From: Acidimicrobiia bacterium
GTDB lineage: Bacteria; Actinomycetota; Acidimicrobiia; Spongiisociales; Spongiisociaceae
DNA length: 35,658 bases
Reading direction: 5' to 3'
Assembly: GCA_003229305.1 (NCBI GenBank)
Contig: QIDH01000063.1
Span: forward strand, 1-35,658
Both the position numbers and the translations under genes were made by a program. The notes below the pieces were generated by a model. It was not told the DNA's origin, did not search any database, and was given only the letters and a program-made list of their open reading frames with translations. Below, piece after piece: positions 27,873 through 30,401 of the stretch (its first letter is position 1; every line of letters begins with the position of its first letter).

Positions 27873-27897
27873 TCGGCTGGGTGTCTGGGTCAGCCGA
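27873..27897. terminator. Hairpin between convergent antiporter and acyl-CoA dehydrogenase genes
   Basis: TCGGCTG (27873-27879) pairs with CAGCCGA (27891-27897) across an 11-nt loop, a perfect 7-bp stem just after the antiporter stop and overlapping the stop of the opposite gene. There is no T-run on either side, so it is at best a weak or Rho-assisted bidirectional terminator. Confidence 0.35.
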
Positions 27898-29593
27898 TGA
27901 TGGCTCCCGGGTTTTGGGCGCTTTGGTGCAGACCCGAACGAAAGGCAGCCTCGGCAGTGACCATGGCCACTTCGGTCTTGGCCACGAACCGCTCTGCTAC
28001 CGGAACCTTTCGGTCGTCGGCTTCGGCCTGGTTCACGAGCAGATGGCTACCGTAGATTCCGAGGTAGGCGTCGACGACGCTGCGGGCGCCGGCTTCACGG
28101 GTCGGCTCATCACAGGCAGCGGCTGCGGCTGCCACCGATGCGTAGGTCGAACGCATGGCCGAGACGCGGGCGGCCAACTCTGCGGTTTCGGGCCGACGAT
28201 CGGCCGAGTCCCAGTCTTCGAATAGGTCGGCGAGCGTGTCTGCGAGCGCATTGCTGAGCGAAGCCGCCACCTGGACCTGGGTGGTGCCCTCATAGATCGT
28301 GGTGATCCTGACGTCTCGCACGAAACGCTCCAACGGCAGTTCCCTCATGTATCCCATGCCCCCGTGGACCTGCTGGGCTTCGTAACAAATCCGGTTGGCG
28401 CTCTCGGTCACCCAGTACTTGACCGCAGGAGACAGGAAGTCCACTTGGGCGGCGAGTTTTTTGAATCGGACTCGCAGCGGCTTCGTGTCTCCGCCCTCCT
28501 TCTTGACACGTGAAATCTGCTCTTCGAGTTTGTTGCGGAGGTCAAGGCGTTGGGTTCCGTCGTACAACATCGCCCTGCCTGCCTCCAGGTCGACCGTCAT
28601 CGCTACGAGCAGATCTGCGACTGGGGGCATTGATTCGATGAGCCGCCCGAACTGCACCCGTTCGCGTGCGTAGGCCCTCGCCTGTCGTGCGGCCGCCTCC
28701 GCGATGCCGAGTGCCTGGGCAGCAACGCTGAATCGGGCATGGTTCAGGACATGGAGAACGTTGAGCAGCCCGTAGCGGCGCCTCCCGACGAGATCAGCGG
28801 GTGCGTCGTCGAAATACAGCTCACAGGTCGGAGAACCGTGCAACCCCATCTTTTCTTCGACTCTCGTGACCTGCACGTTTTCACCGCCATGGCACGCAAA
28901 GAGGCTGAGGCCGAAAGTTCCTTCAACATCTGGTTCACTTCTGGCGAGGACCAGGAGGAGCATTCCGTTTCCGTTCGAGATGAACTGTTTGACTCCCCGA
29001 AGTCGCCATTGGCCTTCTTCGTCTTGGTACGCCTTGAGGCGGATCGATTGGAGATCGGAACCTGCCCCTGGTTCGGTCAGAACCATGGCTCCGATATGGC
29101 GCCCTGCTGCGTATTCGGGCAGGTACTTGGTGGCCACTTCCTCGGTTCCGAATTCCGCGATGGCCTCACCGATGTCTTGGTATCCAAACATGGTCATCAT
29201 GGAAGCGTCTGCCCTCGACACCATCTCGATCATCATGATGTAGATCGTTGCTGGAAATCCCAATCCTCCGTAGCGACGAGGAACGATGACGCCCGCCAGG
29301 CCTGATTCGCCGAGCCTTTTGTAGGCCTGCTCGCTCCCGGTCGCGTATGTGACCGCACCGTCGGAAAACGTTGCGCCCTGTGTGTCGATGCTTTCTGAGA
29401 GGGGGGCGATGGTGTCCGCGGCGATCTCGCCTGCGAGACCAAGTGCGAGCCGATAGTTGTCCATCGCGTCTTCGTAGTCCGAAGGCCCCTCTGGGTCCCG
29501 GTAGCCGGGCTCGAGGATGCCAACGACCTCTTCGAGGTCGAGTCGTGCAAAGGCGGCAAGGAGGTCGTCGTTGTCGTTGAAGTAGTTGCCCAT
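27890..29593 (-). CDS. Acyl-CoA dehydrogenase (long, FadE/AidB-like)
   Basis: This FAD-dependent acyl-CoA dehydrogenase has 567 residues, longer than the 380-400 of short-chain types, as in the FadE/very-long-chain group. Visible blocks are LGESGLAGVIVPRRYGGLG, VLTEPGAGSDLQ (FAD/substrate), GVKQFISNG, EEKMGLHGSPTCELYFDD, YARERVQFGRLI, QQVHGGMGYMRELPLERF and the catalytic Glu in ITTIYEGTTQVQ. The extra C-terminal 80 residues form a helical tail. The ATG has no Shine-Dalgarno; a TAGGGT hexamer lies 9 nt upstream. A divergent control region with two palindromes (29603-29638) precedes it. The substrate is unknown. Confidence 0.94.
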   Translation of the reverse strand: MGNYFNDNDDLLAAFARLDLEEVVGILEPGYRDPEGPSDYEDAMDNYRLALGLAGEIAADTIAPLSESIDTQGATFSDGAVTYATGSEQAYKRLGESGLAGVIVPRRYGGLGFPATIYIMMIEMVSRADASMMTMFGYQDIGEAIAEFGTEEVATKYLPEYAAGRHIGAMVLTEPGAGSDLQSIRLKAYQDEEGQWRLRGVKQFISNGNGMLLLVLARSEPDVEGTFGLSLFACHGGENVQVTRVEEKMGLHGSPTCELYFDDAPADLVGRRRYGLLNVLHVLNHARFSVAAQALGIAEAAARQARAYARERVQFGRLIESMPPVADLLVAMTVDLEAGRAMLYDGTQRLDLRNKLEEQISRVKKEGGDTKPLRVRFKKLAAQVDFLSPAVKYWVTESANRICYEAQQVHGGMGYMRELPLERFVRDVRITTIYEGTTQVQVAASLSNALADTLADLFEDWDSADRRPETAELAARVSAMRSTYASVAAAAAACDEPTREAGARSVVDAYLGIYGSHLLVNQAEADDRKVPVAERFVAKTEVAMVTAEAAFRSGLHQSAQNPGAIIG

Positions 29594-29949: not shown

Positions 29950-30029
29950 ACCTCAGACCCGTTTGCCGCTTGCGGCCGCCGCATGATGATTCGGCGTGGC
30001 CATGCTTCTCAGGCGTTCCGCGTCATCCC

Positions 30030-30072
30030 AAAAGAAAACGAGGCTCCGGTAAGGGGGTCAAACCGGAGCCTC
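30030..30072 (-). terminator. Intrinsic terminator of the candidate small RNA
   Basis: On the minus strand a perfect 10-bp stem (GAGGCTCCGG/CCGGAGCCTC, arms 30063-30072 and 30040-30049) with a 13-nt loop is followed by GTTTTCTTTT. This is the best intrinsic terminator in the window. The plus strand has no T-run after the stem, so it acts in the minus direction only. Confidence 0.8.
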
Positions 30073-30197
30073 GTAATTTGCTCTTCAAACGAAGAGCGCA
30101 AGAGGCCGTTTGACCGAGAACGATGCCAGGGTGTCCGTTCTCGCGTCCCCTTGCTGGTTTGGGGGGGTGTACCCAGAACGTAAACGTTCCAAGTACG
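30030..30197 (-). ncRNA. Candidate small RNA, hairpin-rich with C-rich segments
   Basis: A complete transcription unit without a sensible protein lies on the minus strand: promoter (30204-30232), about 168 nt, and an intrinsic terminator. In order the RNA can form: a 12-bp hairpin (GTAC...GTAC around GAACG-TTTA-CGTTC, about 30195-30168); a run of seven C followed 11 nt later by AAGGGG; an 8-bp hairpin CGAGAACG/CGTTCTCG with 13-nt loop; a 7-bp hairpin GCTCTTC-GTTT-GAAGAGC; then the terminator, whose loop contains ACCCCCTT. That loop could pair with AAGGGG as a pseudoknot. C-rich loops recall the actinobacterial 6C class, but order and length differ, so I do not assign it. No covariance evidence is available. 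Confidence 0.55.
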
Positions 30198-30203
30198 TCG
30201 GAA

Positions 30204-30232
30204 AGGCTAACGATATTCCAATACGGGGTCAA
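30204..30232 (-). promoter_or_regulatory. Sigma-70-type promoter of the candidate small RNA
   Basis: Reading on the minus strand, TTGACC (30232-30227) is followed by exactly 17 nt and TAGCCT (30209-30204), which would start transcription near 30197. It is the best -35/-10 pair I find in the window. Confidence 0.6.
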
Positions 30233-30401
30233 GGGGTCAGGAATCGCACCATTGCTGGACTTTTTCGATCCCGAGTAACCGGCTACCTAGTTATCTGGTC
30301 ACCTGCCGCAAATAGTCAGCGCTCTGCCGATACCCTCCCAGGCGGCCGCCAGTCGGGGTGGGGGTGGGAATATGGAAGTGTGAGGGACTCGTAGTGCGTC
30401 G

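Follow-up and report, generated by a model that had tools for sequence, protein, structure and literature searches.

The window analysed here, the whole 35,658-nt stretch of contig QIDH01000063.1, comes from a metagenome-assembled genome (1.95 Mb, 72% complete) of an Acidimicrobiia bacterium. The locus is flanked by a DUF368 gene (PF04018 in Pfam, similar to undecaprenyl-phosphate translocases) that diverges from it and by an acyl-CoA dehydrogenase gene on the minus strand (27890-29593). Here, a -35 element TTGACC (30227..30232, minus) and a -10 element TAGCCT (30204..30209, minus) are read in the sequence with a 17-nt spacer, and their position leads us to expect a transcript start near 30197. 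From there, a small RNA of ~168 nt (30030..30197, minus) is predicted from its fold, homologues and covariation, running to a terminator at 30030..30074 (minus). The terminator is formed by a 13-bp stem, in which 30074-30062 pair with 30050-30038, an 11-nt loop, TTGACCCCCTT, and a T-rich tail, TTTCTTTT, that ends at 30030; the sequence directly 3' of the stem-loop is UUUCUUUU. The original prediction, made from the letters of the window, had placed an undescribed small-RNA gene at this locus, and the promoter and terminator that it described can be read directly, except that the terminator stem was given as 10 bp. A simple promoter and terminator scanner called neither element here, because the -10 agrees with the consensus at only three of six positions and the terminator loop, at 11 nt, is longer than the 8 nt that the scanner allows; support for both elements comes instead from their conservation in relatives.

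The predicted RNA folds at -76.5 kcal/mol, compared with -49.9 +/- 4.2 in dinucleotide shuffles (z -6.4; none of 200 as low), and the fold contains the four hairpins that had been anticipated, all on the minus strand. P1 (30169..30196), with 12 bp in the window, is linked to P2 by an unpaired C7 run (30161..30167), the first presumed seed. P2 (30098..30154) consists of an outer helix, GCAAGGGG/CCUCUUGC, and an inner helix, GCGAGAACG/CGUUCUCG, and its loop carries the motif CCCUGGC (30125..30131). P3, with the helix GCUCUUC/GAAGAGC (30080..30097), precedes the terminator, whose loop UUGACCCCCUU (30051..30061) holds a C5 run, the second presumed seed. The C7 run, the C-rich terminator loop and an AAGGGG motif are therefore all present as described. 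Relatives do not preserve the suggested competition for pairing of AAGGGG with the C-runs, since AAGGGG lies in the outer P2 helix and is replaced in relatives by AUUGGG, AAGAGG, AGGAGG or CAGGGG, together with its P2 partner. An RNA on the plus strand was considered and rejected, given its weaker fold (z -4.9) and its score of 22 bits, against 135, with the covariance model.

A plain blastn search of 59 relatives found the RNA in other families of the same order, with most of the first matches in the terminator, and a terminator-based DNA pattern matched 14 contigs, mostly of Acidimicrobiia, in a collection of 84,980 species. A first covariance model, trained on the window and five sequences from family f5, recovered members from families f3, f4 and f6 at E-values of 1e-18 to 1e-6, and a second, built from 26 sequences, identified 30 loci (E <= 2e-9) in 24 of 395 genomes of the class, belonging to five families of one Acidimicrobiia order; all these E-values are rough, having been obtained with a short calibration. 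Nothing comparable was detected by the second model in a 297-genome sample of the phylum. Across the class and phylum samples there was no convincing member outside this order, and the weak matches in other classes were mainly terminator-like hairpins. The distribution is patchy, as no convincing match was found in 14 other genomes of the window's own family. The relatives are known mainly through metagenome assemblies, and in G001, the only genome of the same genus, the contig breaks off short of the RNA locus. Exactly at the expected position, that contig end (G001:C288; L083:1-170) carries Illumina adapter-like sequence and poly-T, which is an assembly artefact.

The RNA is single-copy in its own genome. 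Two copies per genome occur only in some f4 and f6 genomes, and a repeat element was ruled out on these grounds. The copies of such pairs (G019, G024, G026, G031, G032 and G039) are diverged, which suggests paralogous sRNAs that differ in promoters and neighbours; in G019, both lie on one contig, 23 kb apart (L130, G019:C35:18495; L131, G019:C35:41596). Contamination of the assembly was also ruled out, given that the DUF368 gene next to the RNA shares 85% identity with its counterpart in the same-genus genome and the contig therefore belongs to the assembly, and so was a virus-borne RNA, the terminator having no match in viral contigs.

The 26 aligned members share one architecture, consisting of P1, a linker C-run (in most), the two-tier P2, an optional P3 and the terminator. 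Pairing holds in 94.4% of the cells of this alignment, and in 27 of the 37 pairs both partners have changed without loss of pairing; the covariation score reaches 0.408, compared with 0.037-0.076 when partners are shifted by 1-3 columns. Since the alignment had been fitted to the covariance model, two further checks are important. A plain MAFFT alignment of ten sequences contained seven pairs with compensatory changes, and 20 sequences outside the first model's training were 93.2% paired, against 43-46% with shifted partners. When the terminator was excluded from the same 20 sequences, leaving P2 and P3, 89.8% remained paired and 19/24 pairs had changed on both sides.

Within P2, the outer pairs are formed in 92-98% and the inner pairs in 86% of the 26 sequences, most of them having changed on both sides, and the CCCUGGC loop is exact in 24 homologues, with CACUGGC and CCCCGGC in the other two. 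P3 is found in f1, f3, f5 and the DUF368-linked f6 copies and is missing in f4 and some f6 copies; where present, it is paired in 100% of cells, and four of its seven pairs have changed on both sides. The terminator shows the strongest sequence conservation within the RNA. Its stem GGCUCCGG is highly conserved, apart from a few members that have GGCCCCGG or GGCCCGG, 98% of its cells are paired (7/13 pairs changed on both sides), and a C5-C7 run occupies its loop in all 26 homologues. A good U-tract follows the stem in the window and in those f6 copies that are linked to DUF368, and a weak one in f5, so that termination efficiency may vary among members. P1 stands outside the covariance model; a 5' hairpin of differing sequence was predicted in all 20 loci examined, with a C4-C7 run in its loop in f3 relatives. 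The linker C-run that follows P1 recurs in most relatives, and the C-runs are unpaired in the predicted folds. A promoter is recognisable in 16 of the 26 homologues, window included, with a TTG-type -35 (mostly TTGACA or TTGACG) located 17-18 nt before the -10, which in relatives is of the TANGAT type (TACGAT, TAGGAT or TATGAT) and ends 14-29 nt before the model start. As judged from these sequence comparisons, the structure of the RNA is under selection across five families of uncultured actinobacteria.

In the window, a 69-aa frame is open across the locus (30023-30232, minus). A small protein was rejected, because indels of 1, 2 and 4 nt in the relatives leave no frame open in all of them, in agreement with the original prediction, which saw no plausible protein and held that a conserved frame in place of paired columns would refute it.

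Neighbouring genes were named by Pfam assignment for the window copies and, for the others, by sequence clustering and reading of the sequences. One f6 copy of the RNA follows DUF368 and shares its strand, so the divergence from this gene, correctly noted for the window, is not general among relatives. Members of f3 adjoin a glycine riboswitch (L026:2115-2295, L038:3684-3775, L033:1300-1387 and L037:4409-4496) and a gene that reads as glycine dehydrogenase. The gene downstream is often convergent in f3, f4 and f5 and encodes either a GTPase of the YchF type or a Na+/H+ exchanger that has a Usp domain; the same exchanger is found past the acyl-CoA dehydrogenase in the window. These shared neighbours indicate that the loci derive from one ancestral gene. 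A G-rich tract, GGGGTGGGGGTGGG (30355-30368), is located ~34-47 nt before the DUF368 start in the window and could base-pair with the C7 linker of the RNA, which is transcribed divergently in the prediction; as a local target it was rejected, being absent from the genome of the same genus, where the end of the contig is damaged.

No Rfam 15 family matched the window at gathering thresholds, and a relaxed search yielded chance-level matches only, with no 6C even at E <= 10. The predicted novelty of the RNA therefore stands. The matches of the relatives were only to the nearby glycine riboswitches, none to the RNA. The best Rfam score in the window was that of ar7 (RF02342), an alphaproteobacterial family, with 18.7 bits against a cut-off of 60 (E 0.15). 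This match covers mostly the terminator hairpin, the rest of the RNA has no convincing alignment, and the resemblance is at chance level. In other phyla, C-rich-loop sRNAs such as S. aureus RNAIII expose C-rich loops to G-rich ribosome-binding sites; the window, in a different phylum, has no Rfam match to any such family.

The comparison with actinobacterial 6C RNA (RF01066; B11), already drawn in the original prediction, holds in kind, as both are stand-alone sRNAs with C-runs in hairpin loops, one of them in the terminator loop, but the RNA is not recognised by the 6C covariance model (75 positions, cut-off 47 bits). 6C was named for the C-run loops in its two hairpins, and a Northern blot from C. 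glutamicum put its length at ~100 nt (PMC4046766). At ~168 nt and with four hairpins, the window RNA differs from 6C (~75-100 nt, two hairpins) in having two extra conserved hairpins, P2 with CCCUGGC and P3, in carrying a C-run in the linker and not in the P1 loop, and in its terminator stem (GAGGCUCCGG). A verbal definition of 6C, two stem-loops with about six or more C each in the loops, describes some f3 members (C7/C6 in L060, C6/C7 in L062), but not the window, with its C5 terminator loop, a P1 without a C-loop and C7 in the linker. It is conceivable, though improbable, that the RNA is a divergent true 6C whose two C-loop hairpins were separated by the insertion of P2 and P3. The f3 relatives, whose first and last hairpins both bear C-run loops, would fit such an origin, as would the weak 6C-model scores of two relatives (37.1 and 34.6 bits). 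Moreover, no over-threshold 6C was found in 57 relatives of the order, where weak matches were mostly lone GC-rich hairpins, so the RNA could occupy the place of 6C, loci of which score up to 89.5 bits elsewhere in the phylum. Against this, the weak matches fall under the cut-off, the length is about double, and C-rich loops may have originated independently. The RNA probably works like 6C, but by the criteria tested it is not a 6C member.

Other explanations bear on how the RNA would act. A structured RNA that functions mainly by binding a protein through the P2 CCCUGGC loop, the C-runs being secondary, is unlikely in our view, yet it deserves attention, considering that 6S RNA and CsrB-type RNAs act through proteins. 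The near-invariance of a loop held by a covarying stem would be expected of such a site, and the lack of enrichment of the CCCUGGC complement at the start regions described below is easier to reconcile with a protein site than with a seed. However, every member keeps C5-C7 in its terminator loop, no protein emerged as a candidate partner, and no protein-binding RNA family in Rfam matches. Very little favours a cis-acting leader, either attenuator or riboswitch, of the acyl-CoA dehydrogenase gene. This gene lies ~440 nt downstream on the same strand, but the RNA has a terminator of its own that lies ~440 nt ahead of the start codon, and in relatives the downstream gene differs and is often convergent. 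The changes in neighbours and orientation point to a free-standing sRNA gene instead, and a conserved promoter and terminator amid varying neighbours are what the sequences of a stand-alone gene would be expected to show. Least probable of all is that the terminator hairpin alone matters and the remainder is spacer. Such a view could account for the concentration of conservation and of first blastn matches in the terminator, and for the nature of the weak model matches outside the order, but it is largely refuted by the covariation of P2 and P3 in unseen sequences, and the promoter and CCCUGGC are conserved as well.

The reading that we favour, and regard as fairly probable, is that of a free-standing gene for a structured, trans-acting, C-rich sRNA whose C-runs pair with G-rich ribosome-binding sites, as in 6C/B11. 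The C-rich segments are conserved and single-stranded in the predicted folds, as is characteristic of this class of sRNAs. To judge from conservation, transcription from a housekeeping-type promoter would yield an RNA of ~168 nt and stop at the gene's own terminator. The hairpins would keep the post-P1 linker C-run, the terminator loop and the CCCUGGC loop of P2 single-stranded, and the probable partners of the C-runs are G-rich stretches of target mRNAs, within or close to their ribosome-binding sites. In the case of B11, the mycobacterial 6C, pairing of the C-loops with G-rich ribosome-binding sites was demonstrated with compensatory mutants (PMC10470900), and as in 6C/B11 the pairing of the C-runs would probably block translation at the targets.

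Targets were searched for in 1.2 Mb of source-genome stretches with ~760 genes (761 start regions), the start codons being picked by codon usage, and the GGAGG signal was recovered. With the linker C7 seed, 10/761 start regions reached -17 kcal/mol or lower, whereas the three control stretches had 1, 2 and 3 (Fisher p 0.002, with thresholds set post hoc). Among the best predicted ribosome-binding sites of the source genome were those at L147:5962-6831, coding for an AAA ATPase, and L180:3158-5329, coding for an MMPL-family protein. Three of 25 shuffled seeds beat this seed on a matched measure, so the target signal is not specific. The terminator-loop seed gave no excess at start regions by duplex energy, and its hexamers occurred in 19 genes versus 15.8; as hexamers, AAGGGG and AGGGGG were enriched 4- to 7-fold. 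The complement of CCCUGGC was not enriched at the start regions of these stretches, and the P2 loop may therefore have another role; it probably serves either as a second seed or to bind a protein. A more speculative proposal, to which we give little weight, is that of a one-order RNA family centred on the CCCUGGC hairpin, with a dedicated site for an RNA-binding protein and the C-rich segments as guides. If true, the RNA would be the guide part of a protein-assisted post-transcriptional regulator; to our knowledge, most sRNAs in the actinobacterial phylum act without a known chaperone.

Two further C-rich elements were observed. In a genome outside the window's class (G199), L135:1501-1614 is a possible unrelated C-loop sRNA: TTGACA lies upstream, the element includes ACCCCCC, and its strong terminator, CGCCTCCGGGACCCCCCCCATCCCGGAGGCG with a C8 loop, leads into a T-run. 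In the window's genus, a second conserved terminator-like element, approximately GCGAGGCCCCGATACCCTCCCATCGGGGCCTCGC, with a C-rich loop (L114, G000:C10:48084-48190; L109, G001:C135:5152-5255), is possibly another sRNA.

A full-text search of the literature collection used here returned no paper mentioning both Acidimicrobiia and small RNA. Taken together, our results describe a well-supported structured RNA family in uncultured actinobacteria that is not in Rfam 15. Exposed C-runs combined with a C-loop terminator may represent a recurring design of actinobacterial regulators beyond 6C, and the near-invariant CCCUGGC loop offers a precise site for asking whether it acts as a second seed or has a protein partner.
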